IMG/VR virus record: IMGVR_UViG_3300049459_000137
Location: 1-23,716 of that record
Source: a virus
Length of the DNA stretch: 23,716 nucleotides
Reading direction: 5' to 3' (one strand)
The notes below the pieces were generated by a model. That model worked only from the letters and a program-made list of their open reading frames with translations, ran no database searches and was not told where the DNA came from. Below, one piece after another: positions 8,887 through 20,617 of this stretch. Position numbers and translations under genes: made by a program. Positions within the stretch are counted from its first letter, which is position 1; each line of letters starts with the position of its first letter.

Positions 8887-8910
8887 AAAAAGCCCCACAT
8901 AAGCGAGGCT
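8887..8910 (-). terminator. Hairpin with U-tract upstream of the left sheath gene
   Basis: On the minus strand AGCCTCGC-TTAT-GTGGGGCT forms an eight-pair stem with two G-U pairs and is followed by TTTTCG. It lies 21 bases upstream of the FI start codon and would stop or attenuate transcription coming from the fibre genes. Confidence 0.6.
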
Positions 8911-8925
8911 GTCAGGGATGTTCGT

Positions 8926-8936
8926 GTTACGCGTAA
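8926..8936. repeat. Second copy of the GTTACGCGTAA palindromic motif
   Basis: The 11 bases GTTACGCGTAA (palindromic TTACGCGTAA core) repeat the centre of the 20-bp palindrome at 2937-2956. In both places the motif is followed, on the minus strand, by a hairpin with a U-tract and then by the start of a tail gene. Confidence 0.45.
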
Positions 8937-8945
8937 TGGAAAAGA

Positions 8946-8972
8946 AAACGCCCCGTCAGTGCGGGGCGTTTA
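8946..8972. terminator. Bidirectional terminator after fibre chaperone G
   Basis: A ten-pair perfect stem (8946-8955 with 8962-8971; AAACGCCCCG) encloses a six-base loop. On the minus strand the stem ends in a T-rich run (GTTTTCTTTT); on the plus strand TTTATTT follows. The stop codon of G (8970-8972) overlaps the stem base. This is the best terminator for the whole right-hand late operon and marks the seam between the two tail modules. Confidence 0.8.
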
Positions 8973-9527
8973 TTTGGGTTGGTCGGCGATCCAACTCGGC
9001 GACACCGGTCGGTCTTTTTGATCCGGGAACTGCCCGGCTTCCGGCCAGTTGCGCAGAGCCTGTCGATAGGCATACAGCTCCGCGCGTTGATCGGCGCTTA
9101 GCGGGTAATCAGGCATGACCAGATAATCGGTGCTCGCAATTTGCGCATTGCGCCACGCTCGCTCTCCCGCTTGCGCCGCTGCAATCTGCGCCACCGCATC
9201 CAGAACCCAGTCCCCACCAGCCCACACATAGAACTGACCTGGCCAGCGCTTGGCGGTCAGTCCTTCAGGCAGATCGCCAAGCGCGGAATACTCCTCCGCG
9301 ACGCCTGGTTCTTCCGTGCGGAAAACCATGCCGCGATAGTCGGCCAATTGTTGCGGCTTCTCCTCGACCAGCACCCATACGTGGCCAGCCTCGGGCTGGC
9401 TCAGAGGCTTTTCCAGCTGGACGGTATTGCCCGGCAGATACTGGCCAAATCCCGGGACCTCGGGAAAATCTGGAAACTCAAACGGCCCGGTCAGGATGCC
9501 GAGCGGGTCGAACACATAGATATTCAT
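8970..9527 (-). CDS. G: Tail fibre assembly chaperone G
   Basis: This 185-aa protein lies directly after the fibre gene and fits the tail-fibre assembly (Tfa/gpG) group: an N-terminal beta-rich part beginning MNIYVFDP, a TAKRWPGQFYVW segment, and a C-terminal helical chaperone-type region with ALRNWPEAGQFP near the end. Such proteins help trimerise the fibre and may remain attached to its tip. The start at 9527 is selected because GAGG lies just upstream; the two preceding codons are in frame but need a GTG. Fibre and chaperone usually co-vary, so this gene belongs with H. It ends inside the terminator at 8946-8972. Confidence 0.85.
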   Translation of the reverse strand: MNIYVFDPLGILTGPFEFPDFPEVPGFGQYLPGNTVQLEKPLSQPEAGHVWVLVEEKPQQLADYRGMVFRTEEPGVAEEYSALGDLPEGLTAKRWPGQFYVWAGGDWVLDAVAQIAAAQAGERAWRNAQIASTDYLVMPDYPLSADQRAELYAYRQALRNWPEAGQFPDQKDRPVSPSWIADQPK

Positions 9528-9534
9528 TAGCACC

Positions 9535-10767
9535 TCAGATCACTTTAATTCGGCCCGGATAGGCAATGTTTTTCGGGACCGTCTCAGCGCCGCCAGCGGC
9601 GCCAGTGCTGCCACCAGTCGGGGTAGCATAGGTGATGCTCCCGCCGCCCATCGCCTGCGTGCCGTAGCCTGCAGAAGGTGCATAGTGGGCGTGACTCTTG
9701 AAATCATCGAGCCGATAGCTGCCCGCAGGACGGCCCGGATCAATCCCGGCAGACTCGTCAAGGGGGCGGAAGAATTTACCGCGCGCATCTGGACCACGGA
9801 ACGTGGTCGCACCATCGCCCGAGGTCCAACCGCCCTCCATACCCCCACGAGCGGCTTCCGTAGTCAGCATTCCCGACTGCTGAGCGTGGTCCCACAACCA
9901 TGGCCAATCGGCACGAATAAATAGGGCATTGCCCAACGGAGCGTTACCCCCCGGATTCAATACGGTCGTCGTTTCAAACACGGGCCGGCCGAGTGCCGTA
10001 CCGTCTAAGCGCGCAATCGGTATCCAGCTGCCCTTGCCATCACTGCGCAAATGCCAATAATCCCCGGCCCCCATCAGGACCAGGAACGAATAGCCGGCCG
10101 CATTCAGATGGGTATGGAACTTGATTTTGTTGCTACCGGCCGCCTTGATCACCAACCGGTTGATGGTGTTATCGACCCGTCGCACCACCACACCACGAAC
10201 ACCCAGCGCCGAGTTGGCGTCGGGCAGCTCAACCGTCAACGCCCCTGCGCTGGCATCAATCAGGACAAGCCCCAACTCGTTTGCCACCAAGGACTTTGAT
10301 GTGTTGACCTCCACTAAAGGGAATTGGCCCACGCCGTTAATCAAGTCGATTGTTTCGGTTTTGGTGAAGGCGTCGGCGATCCCATAACTGAGCAGCGTTG
10401 TTGGATTGCTCCCGCCTATGACTAATCCTTTGGCGTTGACGGATACCTTCGTGAATGAACCGGCCGCGACTCCGCTATCAGCCAAAGCCAGTGTGATCTC
10501 AGTATCTGCACTGCCATCGTAGGTACCCGACCCTGTTGCCGCACCCTTGAATTTCAGCGTTCGAGCTGTCTTCAGTTGGAGTGCCTTGCCGACAGCGTTC
10601 GTACCAGCAATGACCTTATCAATCTGATCCCTCAGCCATTTTGTCCGACTTGCCAGCTGTTTAGCTTGCAAGTTGTCGATGCCTTCCGCCCCCCCTAATA
10701 CAGGGTCGGATGTCTCAAGCTGGTAGATGCCTTCCGGCCATTCATTGATTTCGGGTAGATCGGCCAT
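9535..10767 (-). CDS. H: Tail fibre protein H
   Basis: This 410-aa protein is the receptor-binding fibre. Residues 1-60 (ending LRDQID) are the type of N-terminal segment that attaches to the baseplate. The middle holds Gly/Ser/Thr/Asn-rich beta repeats. The C-terminal third has a collar-like FRGPDARGKFFRPLD motif at about 325-340, then RLDDFKSHAH and a Gly-rich terminus, as in Pseudomonas R-tailocin and P2-like fibres. It is shorter than P2 H (669 aa). Start and upstream stop overlap as TAATG. Codon use is somewhat less GC-rich than in the left module. Only this one fibre gene serves both tail modules in the window. Confidence 0.92.
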   Translation of the reverse strand: MADLPEINEWPEGIYQLETSDPVLGGAEGIDNLQAKQLASRTKWLRDQIDKVIAGTNAVGKALQLKTARTLKFKGAATGSGTYDGSADTEITLALADSGVAAGSFTKVSVNAKGLVIGGSNPTTLLSYGIADAFTKTETIDLINGVGQFPLVEVNTSKSLVANELGLVLIDASAGALTVELPDANSALGVRGVVVRRVDNTINRLVIKAAGSNKIKFHTHLNAAGYSFLVLMGAGDYWHLRSDGKGSWIPIARLDGTALGRPVFETTTVLNPGGNAPLGNALFIRADWPWLWDHAQQSGMLTTEAARGGMEGGWTSGDGATTFRGPDARGKFFRPLDESAGIDPGRPAGSYRLDDFKSHAHYAPSAGYGTQAMGGGSITYATPTGGSTGAAGGAETVPKNIAYPGRIKVI

Positions 10768-11348: not shown

Positions 11349-12465
11349 AGACCACCCCGGCATCCTCAAGCTGGATCGAGGTGCAGTTCGCCCATTCATT
11401 CCCCATCAGCTCAACCGGCGCAACGCCTACAAATCCCAGGTCCGCCCGATAAACGCCATTCACCTGCAGCAATGCGGTCAGTTGCTCCTGGACCAGATCG
11501 CGACCGAGACCTGCACGTCGCTCAACGGCATACTTCTCGGCTGCCGCTTTGGCAGCCTTCATGGCCTCAACACGATCTGCCGTGTCGTAAAAAGTGATGC
11601 GTGCCTTGATTTCGTAGGCGACCTCGGTGGGCGCATACGCGTGAACGGTGTCGCAAAGCGGACGCAGCTTTTCGCCGCTGACCTGGCTTTTGACCCGTTG
11701 AAGCAGATCGTCTGAAGGCAATCCGGTAATGGTCAGCGGGAACAGCGCCACATGGCCATTCGGCTGGCCTTCGTCAGGCCCATGCACGGCGACATCAATG
11801 ATTGACTGGTGTACGGCCAGAGCGTGGTAGCGATAGGCTCCCCGGCTGCCGGCGTTGCTGAAAGCTTCAGGTGCCAAGATGATCCGCTCTCGGTAGCGGT
11901 CGTCCTCCTCATCCTCAGCACCCTCCACTGTGACGTTGATATTGGTTGCGACCAGTCCCTCTGCGGGTGAGTTACCAATGCTGCCGATCTGGCCAACAGC
12001 CCAACCATTGCCCAGCTCTCCGACCGTCAAGCACGTGGCCGTCATGCTGACCTGAGTCTGTCCGGCCAGAATGATGGCGTCTTGGTCAGTTAGAAAAGCC
12101 AGTTTGGCGTCTTGGGTGCTGACGCGAGTGCCGGCACGAATCAGCAATGGTTGCTGCACTGCGGCCGGCATGGTGAAACGCAATGTGCAACGCGCAGGGA
12201 CCGCCAATAGCCGAGGGGTGGCGACCAGTTCGCCCAGGTAATCAAGAATCGGAGCCTTGGCGTAACGCACCAGGAGCTGCTCGCCAGCACTTTGTATGGC
12301 CATCTGCAGACGAGTCTCTGAATAGGCGACCTGGTCTATAAACAGTCGCTCTACCTGCGCGGGATACAGTGTTTTCCCTGTCTTGCCTTCATATCGAGCA
12401 ATTAGGCTGGCTTCGTTGGCCGCTGGATCAATCTTGACGAATACCGGTTTAGGCAGCTCGCGCAT
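11341..12465 (-). CDS. J: Baseplate wedge protein J
   Basis: This 374-aa protein is a P2 gpJ/baseplate J-like protein, a main wedge component. Visible traits are the early Q-V-E-R-L-F-I-D-Q-V-A-Y-S-E-T region, the ILDYLGELV segment near residue 75, and D-D-R-Y-R-E-R-I near residue 190 followed by SNAGSRGAYRYHA, the family signature. The gene overlaps W by 17 bases and I by 8, so W, J and I are translated as a block. Confidence 0.95.
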   Translation of the reverse strand: MRELPKPVFVKIDPAANEASLIARYEGKTGKTLYPAQVERLFIDQVAYSETRLQMAIQSAGEQLLVRYAKAPILDYLGELVATPRLLAVPARCTLRFTMPAAVQQPLLIRAGTRVSTQDAKLAFLTDQDAIILAGQTQVSMTATCLTVGELGNGWAVGQIGSIGNSPAEGLVATNINVTVEGAEDEEDDRYRERIILAPEAFSNAGSRGAYRYHALAVHQSIIDVAVHGPDEGQPNGHVALFPLTITGLPSDDLLQRVKSQVSGEKLRPLCDTVHAYAPTEVAYEIKARITFYDTADRVEAMKAAKAAAEKYAVERRAGLGRDLVQEQLTALLQVNGVYRADLGFVGVAPVELMGNEWANCTSIQLEDAGVVYG

Positions 12466-12826
12466 AAGGCACCTCGGTCAACTGGGCGACACCGTCCGCG
12501 ACACGCCACTGCACGCGCACAACGATGCGCGAGTCCTCAACGAGCACTAGCACCTGAACGACCGAGACTCGGGTTTCCCACCGACGGATAGCGTCGACCG
12601 CTTCACGCACCAAGTGCGGGGTCACTCGGTTGACAGGCCAGTCGATATACAGATGAATGTCGCTGCCAAACTCTGGACGATGGGCGTCACTGCCTTTGGG
12701 TGTGGTCAGGATGATTCGGATGGCTTGGTCGATATCGCGCAGCCCCTCGACAACCGCCCCGGATGTACCGAGGGCGGGTTGCCAGTAGGCGGCAGTGATG
12801 CTGGTGAAAGGAGTGGGCGTCGTCAT
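12449..12826 (-). CDS. W: Baseplate protein W (gp25-like)
   Basis: A 125-aa protein of the GPW/gp25 family, the lysozyme-like fold protein of the baseplate wedge that starts sheath attachment. Key residues seen are DAHRPEFGSDI near residue 45-55 followed by LYIDWP, and the R-R-W-E-T-R-V segment near 90. It is normally next to V; here a plus-strand gene (12942-13628) separates them. The ATG at 12826 has only a weak GGG upstream. The 22-base repeat at 12859-12880 lies 33 bases upstream and could carry a promoter. Confidence 0.93.
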   Translation of the reverse strand: MTTPTPFTSITAAYWQPALGTSGAVVEGLRDIDQAIRIILTTPKGSDAHRPEFGSDIHLYIDWPVNRVTPHLVREAVDAIRRWETRVSVVQVLVLVEDSRIVVRVQWRVADGVAQLTEVPYARAA

Positions 12827-12858
12827 GCGCCCATGATGCGAAAACCAGCTGGCACTGG

Positions 12859-12880
12859 CTTTTAATCGAGTTTAAAGAGA
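12859..12880. promoter_or_regulatory. Shared 22-base element, copy A
   Basis: This stretch begins CTTTTAATCGAG and ends TTTAAAGAGA. It is identical over 22 bases to 19640-19661, and the eight bases to the left match with two differences. It contains an imperfect dyad (CTTTTAA, five-base spacer, TTTAAAG; one mismatch per arm). It lies between the minus-strand W start and the plus-strand DUF4145 gene. It could be an operator or promoter for the cargo gene, for W, or for both. Confidence 0.6.
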
Positions 12881-12941
12881 GTGGTATGAAATAACGCGGC
12901 AGGCATTAGTATATAGATAATCGCCAGAATGGAAGACAGTG

Positions 12942-13628
12942 ATGAGTCAGTTCGTACCTCCAGAATACAACAAAGCTAGCTTTAACTGCCCCCATTGCCA
13001 GGCTTTTGCTGGTATGAGTTGGGACGCCCTGAATGCAGGGGTGCGCAGCCCTGTAGGCTTTATGTCCGCACAATGCCACAGTTGCAAGAAAAGAAGCATA
13101 TGGCGTTTGAGAGCGCTTGATAAAGGTGTCTCCCTCGACCTTGCAGCATTCACTGAGGCAGATATGGTTTATCCACTGTCGGTGAACGCGGCGCCCGCCC
13201 ACCCGCTAATGCCAGAGTTGATAAAGGAGGATTTTGAGGAAGCACGCCAAATTGCGTCAATATCGCCTCGGTCAGCCGCTGCACTGCTAAGGCTCTGCCT
13301 AGAAAAGCTCTGTCAGCATCTAACGGGCACAACCAATAAGATTGATACACAGATTGCGGAACTTGTAGAAAAAGGACTACCTCGTAAGATCCAGCAAGCT
13401 TTGGATACGGTCCGAGTTATTGGGAACGAGGCAGTTCATCCTGGAACCCTTGACCTAAAGGATAGCGATACATTCGTCTACCCATTATTTCGCTTGATCA
13501 ATCTCATTGTTGAAGACCAGATCGCCAGCCCTAACGCTATCAATGACCTTTTTGAGTTGCTCCCTGAGGATAAACGCAAGGGGATTGAGCAGAGGGATGC
13601 AAGAAGGAAAGGCGCGGCAAAGAAATGA
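12942..13628 (+). CDS. Zinc-ribbon plus DUF4145 protein, cargo gene between V and W
   Basis: This 228-aa protein runs against the late operon. Residues 16-48 form a zinc ribbon (CPHC ... CHSC). A helical domain at about 95-200 resembles DUF4145: A-A-A-L-L-R-L-C-L-E-K-L near 110 and RVIGNEAVHPG near 165. DUF4145 is linked to the HEPN superfamily and is found in restriction and other defence proteins. The N-x3-H part of the HEPN motif is present, but Gly stands where a catalytic Arg would be expected, so RNase activity is doubtful. GGAAG lies seven bases upstream of the ATG at 12942. The gene ends one base before the V stop, tail to tail. Codon use is more AT-rich than its neighbours, consistent with acquired cargo. 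Confidence 0.85.
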   Translation: MSQFVPPEYNKASFNCPHCQAFAGMSWDALNAGVRSPVGFMSAQCHSCKKRSIWRLRALDKGVSLDLAAFTEADMVYPLSVNAAPAHPLMPELIKEDFEEARQIASISPRSAAALLRLCLEKLCQHLTGTTNKIDTQIAELVEKGLPRKIQQALDTVRVIGNEAVHPGTLDLKDSDTFVYPLFRLINLIVEDQIASPNAINDLFELLPEDKRKGIEQRDARRKGAAKK

Positions 13629-13629
13629 T

Positions 13630-14181
13630 CTAGTGAGAGTGGTGGTTGGAGTTACCACCTGCATCCATCACCGTGCCTGTTATGTTGACATTTCCATCCA
13701 CGCTTAGGTTTCCATTCACCTGTAGGTTGCCATTCAAGGCGACCTGCGGGATATCCAGAGTCGCTGACGGCGCCTTCACCACCACCGGCTCACCGGCTTC
13801 AACCGTGATATTCCGGCCGCACTTCACAAGCAATGCGCCCACACTATCCAACGTCATCACCCCGGCCTTACGATCATATGTTGAGACAGTGCCATCGCTG
13901 TACCGTACATAGTCCGTGTCCTCATCGACCACGGGCGGTGGCTCGGCGGTTGAATAGATCCCGCCCAGGTAAACACCACCTACTCCGTCAGAGTCCAGCA
14001 ACACGGCGACCTGCTCGTTCAGTTCAGGCAGCAACGGCCGACGCTTCGTGCCTTGGGTATTGCGCTGGGGCACATTGAGCCAGTAGCTCTCAACCCCATC
14101 GCGATCATCCAGGCGCACCCGTATGCGGCAAGTTAGGTGATCCACAGCGCTGACTTCCCCATACTCCAGCTCAACACCCAT
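13630..14181 (-). CDS. V: Baseplate spike protein V
   Basis: A 183-aa protein of the P2 gpV family, the membrane-piercing spike at the tail tip. The N-terminal OB-fold part (to about residue 85) includes LPELNEQVAVLLDSDG and GGVYLGGIYS. This is followed by a beta-helix built of short V-x-G-N-L/V-x-V-x-G repeats (ALNGNLQVNGNLSVDGNVNITG). It ends GNSNHHSH, with the H-x-H metal-binding motif that holds iron in P2 and R-pyocin spikes. GGAG lies 11 bases upstream. It is the only spike gene in the window, so both hub proteins (D) would have to use it. Confidence 0.95.
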   Translation of the reverse strand: MGVELEYGEVSAVDHLTCRIRVRLDDRDGVESYWLNVPQRNTQGTKRRPLLPELNEQVAVLLDSDGVGGVYLGGIYSTAEPPPVVDEDTDYVRYSDGTVSTYDRKAGVMTLDSVGALLVKCGRNITVEAGEPVVVKAPSATLDIPQVALNGNLQVNGNLSVDGNVNITGTVMDAGGNSNHHSH

Positions 14182-14199
14182 CAGTTTGATTCTCCATTG

Positions 14200-15309
14200 T
14201 CAGGCCACCACTTCTTGCTGAATGCCGTAAGTTGCCAAAGCCAGGTCCGGCTTGGTGTTCTCCTGGGCCAATGTGATCGAGGGCGCGGAGATGCGGCAGA
14301 CTGATTTGTCCACGGTGTAACCACTCCGAGTCATTCGGTGTTGCGAAGACGTGATCAGGTAATTCCCGCCGAGCTTGCCCGCCGCTACCAAGGTCACCAC
14401 ATTGCCGCTGAGCAGGTTGGGTCGGCCCATAGCGCCCCAACTGCCGGTGGTGCGTTCGCGGTTGGCCTTGGCCAGTTCGGCCTTGGCTTTTGCCTTGGAC
14501 TCTTCGGCCGAGGCACTGCGCTTGCGGCTCTTTTTGGTATCACCACTGGTGGTGGCCTTGCTCACGCTGCTGGGCACTGCGACGGTTTCGCCATTTTCGA
14601 CTTTATAGGCAATCAGCTTTTTCTTCGCGGGCTCCTTGTGCTTCACCTCGATGGCCTGAGGGACGCTCTTGATCTGGTCACGCAAGTTCACGCTGCTTAA
14701 GTCCTGGAGCACCAGAGTGGCTACCGGTGCGCCCTTGGCCAACTCACTGATGGCATGGAAGACCATTCGATCACCGATGACCTTGAAGGCATAGTCGTAC
14801 TCGGCCGCCAAGTTACGCAGAAAGGTCAGATCGGACTCCTGCTGGGTCAACCGGTCGAGCTTGATCGGCTCGATACTGCCAATCAGCTCCAGCCCCTGAC
14901 GTGCCGCGATCTGCTGGGCCACGGCATCCAGAGTGGTGTTTTCATAAGCGTGGTGTTCGGTGGTCCGTAATGCCGCTTTAATGCCGGTGGCCAGCGCATG
15001 AATGGTGATCGTTGAGGGTGGGCAATTCAGCTCGACCTCATCAATCTCAAATCGCCCAAGTACGCGTAGTGGCCCACCCTCCCAGCCAATGGACACGGTC
15101 AAGCTGTCGCCGTGTCCTGGATACCAGGTGTCGCGCCATTTACCCTCGGTGTCCTCCAATTCAACCTCCAGGCTGTCGGCCTGACCGGTGAGGTAGTCGG
15201 AATAGGACAAAGAGAGCAAGTGTTGGCTGACGTTCCGCGTGATATTGCTCTGCTGATAGGCCAGCACGAAGCGCGCTTCTGGTACTTGCGTGGGGATCAT
15301 CGCATCCAT
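14200..15309 (-). CDS. D: Tail hub/late-control protein D, right module
   Basis: This 369-aa protein is the gpD-type hub of the right tail module. Family traits are the LSLSYSDYLTGQADSLEVELED stretch near residues 32-53, RFEIDEVEL near 100, and the QQESDLTFLRNLAAEYDYAFKV block near 175-196 that aligns with the left-module D. An inserted Lys/Ser/Ala-rich charged helix (KKSRKRSASAEESKAKAKAE) lies at about 245-275. The gene starts within the last codons of X (13-base overlap), with GAGG ten bases upstream, and V follows after 18 bases. Confidence 0.92.
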   Translation of the reverse strand: MDAMIPTQVPEARFVLAYQQSNITRNVSQHLLSLSYSDYLTGQADSLEVELEDTEGKWRDTWYPGHGDSLTVSIGWEGGPLRVLGRFEIDEVELNCPPSTITIHALATGIKAALRTTEHHAYENTTLDAVAQQIAARQGLELIGSIEPIKLDRLTQQESDLTFLRNLAAEYDYAFKVIGDRMVFHAISELAKGAPVATLVLQDLSSVNLRDQIKSVPQAIEVKHKEPAKKKLIAYKVENGETVAVPSSVSKATTSGDTKKSRKRSASAEESKAKAKAELAKANRERTTGSWGAMGRPNLLSGNVVTLVAAGKLGGNYLITSSQHRMTRSGYTVDKSVCRISAPSITLAQENTKPDLALATYGIQQEVVA

Positions 15310-15503
15310 GGTGGAAGATCCTCAGCGGTGGCCACAGGCTCAAGGATTGGGATGGCCAAGGTCAAACCCGCCGGCAAAGCAGCGGTGATCGGCACATGCG
15401 TGTTGGCTTCAACGATCGGTAAGTAACGATGAGCATCACCGTAATATCGCCAGGCCAACTGGTCCCAACGCTCACCTTCAGTTGTGACATGCGCGATAAA
15501 CAT
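15297..15503 (-). CDS. X: Tail protein X, right module
   Basis: A 68-aa gpX-family protein with a LysM-like pattern: GERWDQLAWRYYGDAHRY at residues 10-27, VEANTHV near 32, and LPAGLTLAIPIL near 43. It follows U by a TGATG overlap and overlaps D at its end. Its match to the LysM-type consensus is clearer than that of the left-module X. Confidence 0.92.
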   Translation of the reverse strand: MFIAHVTTEGERWDQLAWRYYGDAHRYLPIVEANTHVPITAALPAGLTLAIPILEPVATAEDLPPWMR

Positions 15504-16384
15504 CAGGACTTCCTCGTCAGGACTTGTGCCGCCAGCCCGGCTAACCGGGTCCGGGCGCCATCCATCGTGGTGAGCGCCTGACCAAGCGACGCTTGGGAGG
15601 CGGAGAAACGATCAACGATGTTGCCCAGGTCAACCGGGTTAAGGGCTGATCGAGCGCCCATCACGCTGCCCAACACGTTCTCACCCAGTCGAGACAGATC
15701 GGCCCCATCCTCTAGTAGTCCGGCCACTGACTTCAGCCCTTGCAGCGGCCCAATAGCCCTGGCAGTAACCCCCAGCAATTGCGGGACTTGACCGAGGATC
15801 ATCGAGGCGTTGCCGCTCTTGACCGTCTCATACAAGTTCTGGCCTGCCTTCAAGATGTTCCCGGCCGTTTTTGCATAACCAATCACCGACTGGACGGTAC
15901 TGGGGGTTGGCATCAGCCGCGAGATGAGTCCGGGCTTACCGGCCGCCGCTGCAGATGTACCACTCAAGGCTGAATCGAGCAGCCCCGGCCGGGCGACCTT
16001 ACGAGTGAAAGCCCCGGTGTATTCCTTCAGGCTCAACTGAACCGTGGCTGCCTTGATCTGGCCCACGGCCGTGGTACGGCGGATGGCATTGGAGATGTTG
16101 GTGATGACGTAGGCGCCCAGGTACTCGCCGCTTCCCATCACAAAGGCCAGAGGCTCATGTTTGCTCTTGGCCAGGCGCAGGGTTCGTAACCGTTCCTCGG
16201 GGGCGCCCAGGACCGGGTGCAACTCGATGGTCAGGTTGCACTCATCCAGCCCTTCACCGACCCATTCCAGCAAAGGTTTTCCCTGGATACGTGCGTGCTC
16301 TGCCCAGTCGGCGGATCCGCTTTGCTCCATACCGCTGATGCCACCCGCTACGGTGAATTCGATGTCACCCAGGATTGCAAACAT
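15503..16384 (-). CDS. U: Tail protein U with C-terminal extension, right module
   Basis: A 293-aa protein with a gpU domain in the first 130 residues: MFAILGDIEFTV start, PLLEWVGEGLDE near 37, and FVMGSGEYLGAYVITNI near 81. The last 150 residues form an Ala/Gly-rich, probably helical extension ending in a hydrophobic heptad-like run. This extension is absent from P2 U (159 aa). The left-module U has a comparable extension at the other end. Start overlaps the T stop as TAATG and the end overlaps X as TGATG. Confidence 0.9.
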   Translation of the reverse strand: MFAILGDIEFTVAGGISGMEQSGSADWAEHARIQGKPLLEWVGEGLDECNLTIELHPVLGAPEERLRTLRLAKSKHEPLAFVMGSGEYLGAYVITNISNAIRRTTAVGQIKAATVQLSLKEYTGAFTRKVARPGLLDSALSGTSAAAAGKPGLISRLMPTPSTVQSVIGYAKTAGNILKAGQNLYETVKSGNASMILGQVPQLLGVTARAIGPLQGLKSVAGLLEDGADLSRLGENVLGSVMGARSALNPVDLGNIVDRFSASQASLGQALTTMDGARTRLAGLAAQVLTRKS

Positions 16385-18909
16385 TACGCGATCCCCTCAT
16401 CAGATGGGCCATAGCTACGGCGGCGCTTGTCGTGCGTGTAGCGCTCCATCATCCGCATCCATTCGACATAGCCCGCCTGCAGTCCTTGTTGAACTTGCTG
16501 CTGTATGTCAGCACCACCAGGTACGTTGATTTGAGGTGAAAAAGTGAAGCTCGGCCCGCCGCCCATACCTGAGCCCATTCCAGCAGCGGCGCCTCCAGCG
16601 CTCCCCATCATGCTCGCCCTGGAGACATCGGCCGGGTTCGGTGGTGCAAGATCGACACCCGATTGCGCAGCCATACCGAGTGCGGCTTTTCGCACCAGGT
16701 CTGACTGCGCACTAATACCAATGGCGGCGCCTTCGCTGATGTTCGCGCCATAGCCCATGAACACACGGCTCGGAGACTGGATGCCGAGTGTCTCGGTAAA
16801 CCACCCTTTTACCGAAGTCCCGACACCGACAACAGCTTCTTTGGCAGCACCTAAAGCATTGCTGATGCCATTGACCAAACCATCAATGACCATGCCGCCG
16901 AACTCGGTGAACTTGCCCGGTAGTTCAATTCCGAAGTAACTCATCACCCCGGCAAAGGCTCTGTAGAACATACCGACCGGAGAAAAGTTAACGAGCAAAC
17001 CCAAAATGCCGGAAAGACCACCGCTGAAGCCGGCTTTGATCTCCGTCCACAAGCCGGCGAAGAAGCCTTTGATCGGCTCCCAGTAGCGATAAATCAGATA
17101 AGCCGCCACGGCGATGCCCGTGATCAGCAGACCGATGGGGTTCATCATCAAGGCTCGACCCAGCCAAAGAATCGCCTGGCCAGCGAGGCGCAGACCAAAA
17201 AGCAACTTCCCACCCAGCACCCGGCCAAGCACGGCGCTGCTACGAGCCAGCCAACTCACAGCGCTGGCCCCTTTGCGCATACCATTGATAAAGGGCGCGA
17301 ATTTGCCCATCTGCCACATGCCGCGCAACAAGGTCCACTTCGAGGAAAGTGTCGTAATAGTGGTGCTCATGGCCACGATGGGCGACAGCACCAGATTGGC
17401 CCCATAAGCCACACCGATGAAGGCCATTTTGCCGAGTAAAAGGCCACCGACTAGGCCGATGACGCCTTTGATAAGTTCAGGATTTTCACCGGCCCAAGTG
17501 CCGAATGACTGCATTACCGGTAGGACGGCTTGCGTGACGTCGACGAGGGCCGGTAACAGAGTGCTGCCGATGGTGATACCGATCTCCGAAAGATTGATCG
17601 TCAGCGCTTTGAGCTGCTCCTTCGGGCTTTCCATCCGTTTTTTCCAGTCTGTATCAAGCCCGCCTTTGTCGGCCGCTTCCGTGCTGCCCTTTTGGATACT
17701 GGCAAGTTCCTTTTTGTTGGCCATAGCCGGGCGGACGAATGAGAGAACCTGCTGGTCAGCAAACAACTCCCCCAACTTGTAAGCTTCGTTCAATCGATTG
17801 AGGGCGATCTGCCGCTCTTCGTCGTCCTTGATCGCCATGGCTTTTTGAAATTTACCGGCGGCCTCAGGCCCCTTGCTTCCTACATACTGAGTGATGACTT
17901 CCAGCATCGCCTGGACCGGAGTAAGTCCGTTTCCAACCAGGTTCTTCATTGACGCGGTGAGGTCAATCCCTGCGCCCTCAAAGGACTTTAGAGTGTCCTT
18001 CGCGGTCAGTTTCGAAAGGAAGTTTTTAAAGTTGTTAGCCGCTTCATCGTTGCTACCGGCGCCCTTACGGGCGATTTGTAGCGAGGCACCGATCTCGGCA
18101 ACAGCGCGCTCACCTGTGATCCCCAAGGCCGCAAACTGTGGCGTGAGCTGCGGCAACCATTTAGCCATGTCAGCCAATTCAAACTGACCGCTCTTGCCGG
18201 CAAAGGCCAGCATGTTCATTGAACGTTCAAGCCCGGCGGCGCCAATTCCGAGGTTGTCATTCAGTGCGATGGCCACCGAGCCCAGATCGTCCATGCTGGC
18301 ACGCGTGGCGGTAGCCGTTTTGGCCATCACAGGGGCATAGGCGGCCAGTTCCTTGGCGCTGGAGATCCCGCCAGCGATCAACACCGCTGTGCCTGCGGCA
18401 ACGTCTGCTTGGGTTTGATTCCACTTAAGTGCGGAACCGCGCATTACGTTTCCGAGTTGTGCCTCCTCCGCTGCATCGAAGCCACCCGTGATTGCGATGT
18501 CATTGGTCTGGTCTTTGAAGTCGATAGCCGTACGCATGGACTGGACAACTGGAGCGCCAAGCACCGCTGCCGTTCCTGCGGTTTCCATGGCCTGGCCACG
18601 CAACTCACCTCGTTTGTTTTTAAGGGTTTCACCACGGGCGATGCTGGTGTTGAGACGCTCTTGCTTGACCTTGAGTTGATCAATCGTACGGCCGACCTGG
18701 TCATACTGGCGACGCATGCGCTCGATGCCGGTACCACCGCGAGCCAACGACGCCGCCAGCTCGGTGCCGATGAGCTTCTGTTTGGCCGTCAATCCATCAG
18801 TAGCACGACCAAGCTGCTGCACAGTCGACTTGGCCGAGCCGAATGCGGCACTCAGGCTGCCCGATACAGCGGCCCCGATCTTTAGTCCAACCAGAACTTC
18901 ATTAGCCAT
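16384..18909 (-). CDS. T: Tape measure protein T, right module (841 aa)
   Basis: The tape measure of the right module, PhageMin_Tail family. The start MANEVLVGLKIGAAVS parallels the left T (MANKLALGLVIGGAVS), and the core GQFELADMAKWLPQL followed by NDEAANNFKNFLSKL (about residues 240-300) aligns with it directly. Hydrophobic helices lie near 490-535 and 590-640, likely for channel formation in the target inner membrane. The C-terminus is Gly/Met-rich. The ATG at 18909 has no clear ribosome-binding site, which is notable because the plus-strand membrane-protein gene begins only 19 bases away and may have displaced the original leader. Confidence 0.94.
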   Translation of the reverse strand: MANEVLVGLKIGAAVSGSLSAAFGSAKSTVQQLGRATDGLTAKQKLIGTELAASLARGGTGIERMRRQYDQVGRTIDQLKVKQERLNTSIARGETLKNKRGELRGQAMETAGTAAVLGAPVVQSMRTAIDFKDQTNDIAITGGFDAAEEAQLGNVMRGSALKWNQTQADVAAGTAVLIAGGISSAKELAAYAPVMAKTATATRASMDDLGSVAIALNDNLGIGAAGLERSMNMLAFAGKSGQFELADMAKWLPQLTPQFAALGITGERAVAEIGASLQIARKGAGSNDEAANNFKNFLSKLTAKDTLKSFEGAGIDLTASMKNLVGNGLTPVQAMLEVITQYVGSKGPEAAGKFQKAMAIKDDEERQIALNRLNEAYKLGELFADQQVLSFVRPAMANKKELASIQKGSTEAADKGGLDTDWKKRMESPKEQLKALTINLSEIGITIGSTLLPALVDVTQAVLPVMQSFGTWAGENPELIKGVIGLVGGLLLGKMAFIGVAYGANLVLSPIVAMSTTITTLSSKWTLLRGMWQMGKFAPFINGMRKGASAVSWLARSSAVLGRVLGGKLLFGLRLAGQAILWLGRALMMNPIGLLITGIAVAAYLIYRYWEPIKGFFAGLWTEIKAGFSGGLSGILGLLVNFSPVGMFYRAFAGVMSYFGIELPGKFTEFGGMVIDGLVNGISNALGAAKEAVVGVGTSVKGWFTETLGIQSPSRVFMGYGANISEGAAIGISAQSDLVRKAALGMAAQSGVDLAPPNPADVSRASMMGSAGGAAAGMGSGMGGGPSFTFSPQINVPGGADIQQQVQQGLQAGYVEWMRMMERYTHDKRRRSYGPSDEGIA

Positions 18910-18928
18910 AATTTGCTACGCTGTGAGC

Positions 18929-19189
18929 ATGTTTGAGAAGACCGCTTTACGCACCGCTAAAACCCTCTATGCACTGGTCATCGGCATCGGTGTGATCTGG
19001 CTTGCCTGGCTGTGCCTGACGAACCTGCCAGTGTGGGCGGCGGTTTTGATGTTCTGTCTGGGCTTGCCATTGCTGGCCTTGGTGGCCGCCCCTATTGCAG
19101 CGGGCGGCGCGTTGTTGGCGGGAGTGGTGGTCGGACTGGTGGTAATGATCAGTTCTTCATCTGCTCGGCGAGTTCGATGCGACGATTGA
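18929..19189 (+). CDS. Small membrane protein, cargo gene between E' and T
   Basis: An 86-aa protein on the plus strand with about three closely spaced hydrophobic segments (residues ~11-30, 34-51, 53-74) and a short basic C-terminus (ARRVRCDD). The tail operon has no minus-strand gene in this 239-base gap, whereas P2-like phages have E' and T adjacent, so something has been inserted. Start codons of this gene and T are separated by 19 bases, and its end overlaps the E' end by 41 bases. CATAAT at 18907-18912 could be a -10 box. Small membrane proteins encoded by prophages often change superinfection or entry, but nothing here proves a function. It might instead be a holin-like protein, although its position is unusual. 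Confidence 0.6.
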   Translation: MFEKTALRTAKTLYALVIGIGVIWLAWLCLTNLPVWAAVLMFCLGLPLLALVAAPIAAGGALLAGVVVGLVVMISSSSARRVRCDD

Positions 19190-19316
19190 TCTCGCGCCTG
19201 CATGTTTCCACCCAGCGCCAATAGTCCACCATGTCCAGTCGGACGATCTCAGACGGCTGCATCCTCAGCACGAGCAGCAGCGCTTCGTCCCAGGACTGCA
19301 GCAAGGTCTCCTCCAT
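19149..19316 (-). CDS. E': E' tail assembly chaperone extension, right module
   Basis: This frame encodes a 55-aa GpE-type sequence from the ATG at 19316 (MEETLLQSWDEALLL, then DMVDYWRWVETCRRE). The D-x-V-x-x-W-x-W pattern parallels DQMLWWL in the left E'. The frame is +1/-2 relative to E, the same relation as in the left module. It may be made by frameshifting within the overlap with E (19249-19316 and upstream), with GGA GGA GAC as one candidate region, or by restarting at the ATG, which has only a weak GGGA upstream. The frame is open upstream to a GTG at 19373. Confidence 0.7.
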   Translation of the reverse strand: MEETLLQSWDEALLLVLRMQPSEIVRLDMVDYWRWVETCRREINRRIELAEQMKN

Positions 19317-19563
19317 TGGACATTTCCCGCAACACCTCGGTGGCTGACTTAGAGTCAGCGATATCGAACTCACCGAGGTCCTCCAGTGTGATACCCAGCA
19401 TCTTGGCTACGAGCATGTCTTCCAGACCTGCTTCATCTTTTGTCACTGCCTGAGCGGCGCTGATGTCTTTGCGTTTGAGACGCTTGATAGGCAGCTTCGA
19501 GATCGTCTCGCCGCTGGCACTCTTGAAAGGGAACTTGAGGGTCAAGCTGATTGTTTCGGCCAT
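19249..19563 (-). CDS. E: Tail assembly chaperone E, right module
   Basis: A 104-aa tail assembly protein of the gpE/gp41-like group. It starts MAETISLTLKFPF, has IKRLKRKDISAAQ and a MLGITLEDLGEFDIAD segment (residues ~64-79) typical of the family. The start at 19563 is used rather than 19623 because the longer version begins in unlike sequence; no strong ribosome-binding site is seen. The gene should be next to FII, but a plus-strand gene, a terminator and the 22-base element lie between, so its transcription may need a separate promoter. Confidence 0.85.
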   Translation of the reverse strand: MAETISLTLKFPFKSASGETISKLPIKRLKRKDISAAQAVTKDEAGLEDMLVAKMLGITLEDLGEFDIADSKSATEVLREMSNGGDLAAVLGRSAAARAEDAAV

Positions 19564-19639
19564 CTTTGCTGCTCCAGGTTGTCGGTCTGATCGACTGCTA
19601 TGAACGAGCCCTGAGCATCGCACCTGGTCGTGGCGCTGA

Positions 19640-19661
19640 CTTTTAATCGAGTTTAAAGAGA
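19640..19661. promoter_or_regulatory. Shared 22-base element, copy B
   Basis: Identical over 22 bases to 12859-12880, with TGGCGCTGA directly to the left in place of TGGCACTGG. It stands in the gap between the minus-strand E start (19563) and the plus-strand 104-aa gene (19735). The dyad CTTTTAA-n5-TTTAAAG makes it look like an operator. The rest of the gap (19662-19734) is unlike the other locus. Confidence 0.6.
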
Positions 19662-19734: not shown

Positions 19735-20049
19735 ATGAGTGACGACAACAAAGAGCTATTTAATCTTCTAGCTCGAAAAACCTTGGAGCTTTTGGTGGAC
19801 GTTTGTCCCGTGCCGGTAAAGATTACCGCTGAGACATTTGAGCTTCCGAAAGGTGAGCGCCAAACATCCGAAAATGGCTTCCTCGGGACAACTACGTTTT
19901 ACAAGAAATCCCAAGATGAGCAGGTTCTTAGCAGCCTGCTTCAGTGGCTTGAAGCCGAAAATTTCATCAGGGAAAAAGGTGGCTATTACGTCGCCACGCT
20001 ACAAACTCTGAAGCTCTACAACGCAGCACCGAATGCGATCACGGAGTAA
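19735..20049 (+). CDS. 104-aa protein of unknown function, cargo gene between FII and E
   Basis: This gene is transcribed against the tail operon. AAGGAG lies eight bases upstream of its ATG and a strong hairpin terminator follows its stop. The product is acidic and mixed alpha/beta. The second half (V-L-S-S-L-L-Q-W-L-E-A-E-N-F-I then a Y-Y-V-A-T-L hairpin) has the look of a winged-helix unit: a helix followed by a beta-wing. No family is recognised. It shares its upstream 22-base element with the DUF4145 gene, and its codon use is more AT-rich than that of the tail genes. It is an independent expression unit and a plausible lysogeny-expressed cargo gene. Confidence 0.8.
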   Translation: MSDDNKELFNLLARKTLELLVDVCPVPVKITAETFELPKGERQTSENGFLGTTTFYKKSQDEQVLSSLLQWLEAENFIREKGGYYVATLQTLKLYNAAPNAITE

Positions 20050-20053
20050 CTAA

Positions 20054-20085
20054 AAAGGCAGTCAACTGGTAAGTTGACTGCCTTT
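20054..20085. terminator. Bidirectional terminator between the 104-aa gene and FII
   Basis: A perfect 14-pair stem (20054-20067 with 20072-20085; AAAGGCAGTCAACT) encloses a GGTA loop. On the minus strand the stem leads into TTTTTAG, on the plus strand into TTTAGTTT. It should end transcription of the 104-aa gene and may also stop late transcription leaving FII, unless the late complex is antiterminated. Confidence 0.85.
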
Positions 20086-20092
20086 AGTTTAT

Positions 20093-20617
20093 TTATGCCT
20101 GCCCGATGTTCTGCCTGTACTTGGAAAGCTGATCCTCACCGCCCACGCGGAAGATGTTGGCCAGGTAATCCAGCAAAACCACCTCTTGCCCATCGAGCAC
20201 CTGTCGAACATACGTCGCCGAAAACGGTGTCTCGTACTTGGTCGGGTCTCGCGGTTTATGACTGCCCAGCTGATACTCCTTGCCGGTGATGGTCATCATC
20301 GTGACCAACGCGATCTCGTCAACCAGGCCGCCGTTGTTGAAGACCTGGACGTTGGAGCGGCACTGCAACTGGACGCTCTTGAATGGCGTGACCAGCTTGA
20401 CTGCGGCGTCGTAGTACATGCTGTTCCAGGTGATCTTGCCTTCCAGCTTATCGAGCCCGTCAGGTAGCTCGATCAGGCCAACCATGCCCAGCCCCTGAAA
20501 GTCACTGGCCACAGTCTTGATCGAGCCCAGGTCGATCTCTTCTGCACGGCCGAAGAAGCTCGCGCCATCCAGATAGATCGCAGCGTTGGAAACGCGGTGT
20601 GCACTAAAGCCTGCCAT
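20093..20617 (-). CDS. FII: Major tail tube protein FII, right module
   Basis: A 174-aa contractile tail tube protein of the FII family. It begins MAGFSAHRVSNAAIYLDG, has the K-T-V-A-S-D-F-Q-G-L-G-M-V-G-L-I-E-L-P central block (about residues 34-52), and the late YVRQVLDGQEVVLLDYLANIF segment. It directly follows the sheath (one stop codon apart, TAAATG), with GGGAG nine bases upstream. Its partner is the sheath at 20618-22042. Confidence 0.93.
   Translation of the reverse strand: MAGFSAHRVSNAAIYLDGASFFGRAEEIDLGSIKTVASDFQGLGMVGLIELPDGLDKLEGKITWNSMYYDAAVKLVTPFKSVQLQCRSNVQVFNNGGLVDEIALVTMMTITGKEYQLGSHKPRDPTKYETPFSATYVRQVLDGQEVVLLDYLANIFRVGGEDQLSKYRQNIGQA

Follow-up and report, generated by a model that had tools for sequence, protein, structure and literature searches.

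The stretch of viral DNA analysed here (the window, 23,716 nucleotides) carries on its minus strand the late-gene half of a phage resembling Mu and then an R-type tailocin-like module. The minus-strand genes follow the order capsid, gp36, gp37, gp38, FI, FII, E, T, U, X, D, V, W, J, I and H, with plus-strand cargo genes lying between V and W and between FII and E (Table 1). The window is a fragment: the Mor/C gene and the lysis and head sites, which are considered below, fall outside it. An earlier note on this DNA had drawn attention to 22 identical bases, CTTTTAATCGAGTTTAAAGAGA, present at 12859-12880 and again at 19640-19661, each time between plus-strand cargo and the 5' end of a tail gene on the minus strand. 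Both the identity and the placement were confirmed (the ATG of W is at 12826 and that of E at 19563), and 100 dinucleotide-preserving shuffles gave no match. The dyad recognised within the repeat, CTTTTAA-n5-TTTAAAG, is real, with six of its seven pairs formed, and the eight near-identical bases said to adjoin it on the left match at six positions. No third copy was found in the window with up to three mismatches allowed, nor did a motif scan find a site in the tailocin half.

Table 1. Features surrounding the two copies of the repeat in the window; promoter elements are predictions.
Feature	Position	Strand	Remarks
Activator site (22-mer with dyad), predicted W late promoter	12859..12880	-	~-54 to -33
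-10 box CATCAT	12833..12838	-	20 nt downstream of dyad; 6 nt then W ATG
W, baseplate wedge (gp25-like)	12449..12826	-	PF04965 1.9e-12; first gene of the promoter's unit; predicted leaderless
Cargo 1, DUF4145 protein	12942..13628	+	PF13643 3.8e-17; slot between V and W promoter
V, baseplate spike	13630..14181	-	PHROG 9992 5.9e-17; last gene upstream of W slot
E, tail assembly chaperone	19249..19563	-	PF10109 1.3e-13; first gene of E promoter's unit
-10 box GATGCT	19614..19619	-	20 nt downstream of dyad; predicted leader ~45 nt to E start
Activator site (dyad), predicted E late promoter	19640..19661	-	
Cargo 2, function unknown	19735..20049	+	PHROG 2266 3.6e-07; slot between FII and E promoter
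Hairpin, 14 pairs, terminator-like	20054..20085		in the gap where cargo 2 and FII converge
FII, tail tube	20093..20617	-	PF04985 3.3e-41; last gene upstream of E slot

At 8898-10767 of the window, phage gene H leads directly into the tfa and sheath genes of the tailocin. In Pseudomonas sp. Irchel s3h14 (G002; L085-L087), a closely similar Mu-like prophage lies within H, the tail-fibre gene of an R-type tailocin cluster, where matches to tailocin H flank the prophage on both sides and have seven query bases in common (961-967), as a target duplication would give. The contig of the window joins prophage and tailocin via their similar H ends, either by recombination or by an assembly join.

Distribution of the repeat

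Exact matches to the 22-mer occur in 44 viral and nine genome stretches, all nine of the latter from Pseudomonas. Near-complete prophages mostly carry four copies (up to three mismatches), about 6-8 kb apart and in a single orientation, and a reversed-pattern control gave no match in the same prophages. At the same tolerance, four complete Pseudomonas genomes of 6-7 Mb have just 4, 4, 8 and 2 matches, and the whole-genome matches that were mapped (G001, G002 and G003) fall inside Mu-like prophages. The complete relatives are Mu-like transposable Pseudomonas prophages with homologues of MuA, MuB, GemA and Mor/C, the closest annotated phage being Komp_PAO1_1 (Komp). When mapped onto genes, the copies lie upstream of (i) the lysis operon (endolysin), (ii) the head protease region, (iii) tail gene E and (iv) baseplate gene W, and Komp has slightly altered copies at these same four junctions. 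Scatter in unrelated contexts, which the earlier note had named as telling against its proposals, was not seen, since mapped copies are confined to these four junctions of one phage group, one A+T-rich contig excepted. This contig (L021/L096, one of the 44 viral stretches, 34% G+C) has one exact 22-mer at L096:5578-5599 with no nAnnnT hexamer at 20 nt, and was set aside as unrelated or a chance match, being a single copy with no homologous phage gene. An open-access literature search found no account of late promoters for this phage group.

The repeat might be thought of as a recombination boundary that exchanges cargo between phages and slots and is kept for helping cargo spread, in keeping with the fact that cargo is always found against one and the same side of the motif and that each site has a conserved left flank and a variable cargo side. 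This reading, to which we give hardly any credence, is countered by copies of the motif ahead of the lysis operon and at junctions that have no cargo, and by the conservation of the promoter spacing (see below) in phages whose junctions are free of cargo; as a side effect, the motif could still be a place of homologous recombination. The related idea that the repeat is the scar of a common insertion mechanism fails on the same lysis-operon and cargo-free head junctions, and because the motif persists, in diverged form, at the same junctions of enterobacterial phages.

Anatomy of the predicted late promoters

As read along the late-gene direction, the motif is TCTCTTTAAACTCGATTAAAAG. Exactly 20 nt past its end lies an nAnnnT hexamer in 96/96 distinct sites, which share descent and do not represent 96 independent cases, the independent evidence being the four site classes and the other phages. 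The hexamer is CATTAT or a variant of it at W, GATGCT at E, GATCAT at the lysis site and CAGTCT at the head site. The background frequency of nAnnnT is 0.03-0.05, and none of the other offsets between 0 and 59 exceeds 30% in all four classes. Taking the hexamer as a -10 box at -12 to -7, the dyad spans -51 to -33, with its centre at about -42. Between-class identity is 0.88-1.0 over -52 to -33 (the 20-mer core), is low for most of the length of the spacer and regains 1.0 solely at -11 and -7. A conserved dyad block together with an invariant A and T at these two positions is what one expects of an activator site and its -10 box.

On the cargo side of the motif no conserved element was found across sites, which weighs against the possibility that the motif is a promoter/operator for cargo in the lysogen. 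Cargo does start 61-74 bp from the motif in the window, but the -10 box is on the tail-gene side only, and the motif is present both at sites without cargo and at sites with cargo-sized ORFs on the other strand; the shared lysogenic promoter or operator proposed in the earlier note is thus not upheld, and we regard such a role as extremely improbable.

The same spacing is found in enterobacterial phages. Escherichia phage PhiKM and Klebsiella phage KP12 have diverged dyads, e.g. TTTTAAACGCCTTTAATAT, at the same four junctions, which were found by aligning the four gaps (a direct-repeat search of the two phages missed these weaker dyads), and an nAnnnT hexamer lies exactly 20 nt off the dyad in 4/4, other offsets giving fewer than 3/4. 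A similar geometry is known from phage Mu, in which Mor binds a dyad at -51 to -36, centred at -43.5, in the Pm promoter (PMC4287176) and the four late promoters have a related dyad that is bound by C (PMC4287176; also PMC4461284). These four Mu promoters, annotated from mapped starts, align in the same register, ATAA ending 24 nt before TAGACT, CAAACT, TATCCT and TAAGAT, the -10 hexamers having been chosen in this analysis. The Pseudomonas phage sites thus share with Mor/C-activated late promoters a dyad near -43 that overlaps the -35 region, a -10 hexamer at a fixed distance and several copies placed ahead of late operons, along transcription.

We consider it highly probable (about 0.88) that the 22-mer serves as the upstream activator site in Mor/C-activated late promoters reading into the minus-strand tail genes and, judged from sequence, the motif belongs to these late genes (W and E), not to the cargo. 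The regulator site suspected in the earlier note is hence borne out by a conserved dyad with a -10 box at fixed spacing, whereas its suggestion of a restart promoter for the late operon survives only as a promoter: cargo-free phages have the motif too, so no restart is made necessary by an interruption. A single Mor/C-family protein, encoded beside gemA, would bind the dyad at around -51 to -33 as a dimer and make host RNA polymerase start at the weak nAnnnT -10 box 20 nt downstream, so that the four copies would jointly switch on the lysis and packaging unit, the head unit, the tail unit beginning at E and the baseplate unit beginning at W. Binding by the Mor/C protein, activation, timing and cargo expression are all what we infer from DNA sequence.

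Multiple copies that lie in short gaps between genes and all face the same way with respect to transcription are also a feature of the stoperators of mycobacteriophage L5, repeated directional intergenic repressor sites that stop elongation, and a bound repressor might similarly block late transcription in the lysogen. Such silencing sites would have no promoter of their own, whereas every site here has a -10 box at fixed spacing, and they would leave unexplained both the fixed 20 nt and the fit to the mapped late promoters of Mu, which makes this reading very doubtful.

As for the activator, one Mor/C-family protein adjoins GemA in every complete relative. That of Komp matches PF08765 (2.7e-30) and has Mor (1rr7) and C (9l0x) as PDB relatives. 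There are two Mor/C types, only ~38-40% identical, that accompany the same motif, which therefore does not visibly track the protein: either the two types share a single recognition site, or a different factor binds it. That the dyad is an activator site bound by some other phage or host regulator, for which this pairing of one motif with two rather different proteins speaks, is nevertheless unlikely in our judgement, considering that the dyad lies at the same place relative to the -10 box as do the Mor and C sites of Mu and that the PhiKM record annotates as C the protein at the equivalent position beside GemA. The two types alternate at one gene position (Komp CDS0037; counterparts in G018, G007, G028 and G002) in phages that are otherwise similar.

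Cargo slots and the start of W

The gap upstream of the motif is either empty or filled at three of the junctions: (i) 7-18 bp versus 308-1025 bp at W, (ii) 71 bp versus 304-1568 bp at E and (iii) 157-160 bp versus 557-1482 bp at the head site. In cargo-free phages, V is separated from the motif by 7 (G008), 14 (Komp) or 18 bp (G020). The G+C content of filled gaps is 0.45-0.56. The earlier note asked whether the motif always borders reverse-strand cargo; this is nearly always so at W, but in several E and head gaps the longest ORF is on the late-gene strand. With the motif present at empty slots and cargo found on either strand, the motif is independent of cargo. A G+C-rich hairpin runs up to the motif in 16 E-type sites, the TCTTT of the motif then forming its T tail, and where an E slot lacks reverse-strand cargo the site is often adjoined by a terminator hairpin. 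Foreign cargo occupies the slot that extends from the end of one late unit to the next predicted activator site, usually on the opposite strand, and we infer that it uses the unit boundary, where an insert leaves the promoter joined to its genes.

Cargo 1 matches the PADLOC model of the anti-phage defence family PD-T7-4 over essentially its full length (8.6e-77, residues 1-221/228), a system that came from a functional selection in E. coli (PMC9519451). Relatives of cargo 2 occupy the same slot in G021 and G002, and a RES domain is present in the head-slot cargo of G002 and G007. A toxin-like RES protein (PF08808 4.2e-18), whose N-terminus weakly matches HEPN/RES, is found in the head-promoter slot at L077:1484-2752 and in the same slot of G002. 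Five E/W-slot cargo proteins of 187-318 residues (L058:10778-11338, L060:10514-11251, L070:3259-4212, L073:12918-13718 and L078:5734-6516) have no Pfam or PADLOC match and are candidate defence genes. Komp CDS0006 (minus strand, 2.1 kb; L092:5112-7241), which could pass for head-site cargo, was taken as an antisense frame because the plus strand holds two long frames where the protease and the major capsid protein belong; the protease and major capsid genes beneath it are unannotated in the record.

The W site has a further peculiarity, that is, the proximity of the -10 box to the gene. In 16/16 scored Pseudomonas phage W sites, 6 or 7 nt separate the -10 box from the ATG (at two further sites the script scored a GTG at 0 nt, the first it met, which is not where W starts); the distance is 6 nt in PhiKM and KP12. 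In the window, neither the first 50 codons of W nor the in-frame sequence upstream has an alternative ATG, GTG or TTG. An ATG 6-7 nt past the -10 box places the start codon of W at or within 1-2 nt of +1. That W has a leaderless late mRNA, and that defence cargo of transposable phages has standing slots at the upstream edges of shared Mor/C promoters, is a combined proposal to which we would give even odds. In cargo-free phages, read-through from V could be an additional supply of W.

These predictions would describe, from sequence alone, a whole late regulon (activator, site, spacing and four promoters) for Mu-like Pseudomonas phages, one that would explain where cargo can enter without cutting late genes off their promoter. 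The slot beside each site may serve as an anchor for finding unknown defence genes, and a leaderless W, if true, would be a case of conserved natural leaderless translation in a phage structural gene.

Comparison with known systems

Phage Mu, too, has four C-dependent late promoters (Plys, PI, PP and Pmom), with a dyad just upstream of the -35 region, centred within ~2 bp of the position found here, and a weak nAnnnT -10 box, and in both cases there are late promoters upstream of lysis and of the head protease. The differences concern (i) the dyad, which is CTTTAAA-n5-TTAAAAG in the Pseudomonas phages and TTAT-n6-ATAA-like in Mu, (ii) the two tail promoters, at E and W instead of P and mom, (iii) the activator, a single Mor/C protein having been found where Mu has Mor plus C and (iv) the copies of the site, which are far more uniform (20 bases nearly invariant) than in Mu. 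PhiKM and KP12 also encode a Mor/C-family protein beside GemA, but their dyads are diverged and less uniform, their junctions are without cargo and their promoters are unannotated in the records. L5 stoperators are repeated, directional and intergenic as well, while the Pseudomonas phage sites have promoter anatomy instead. Finally, variable cargo at fixed places between conserved phage genes is likewise seen in morons and in the defence hotspots of P2 (PMC9519451), whereas the slots described here are the upstream edge of the shared late promoters predicted for a transposable phage.
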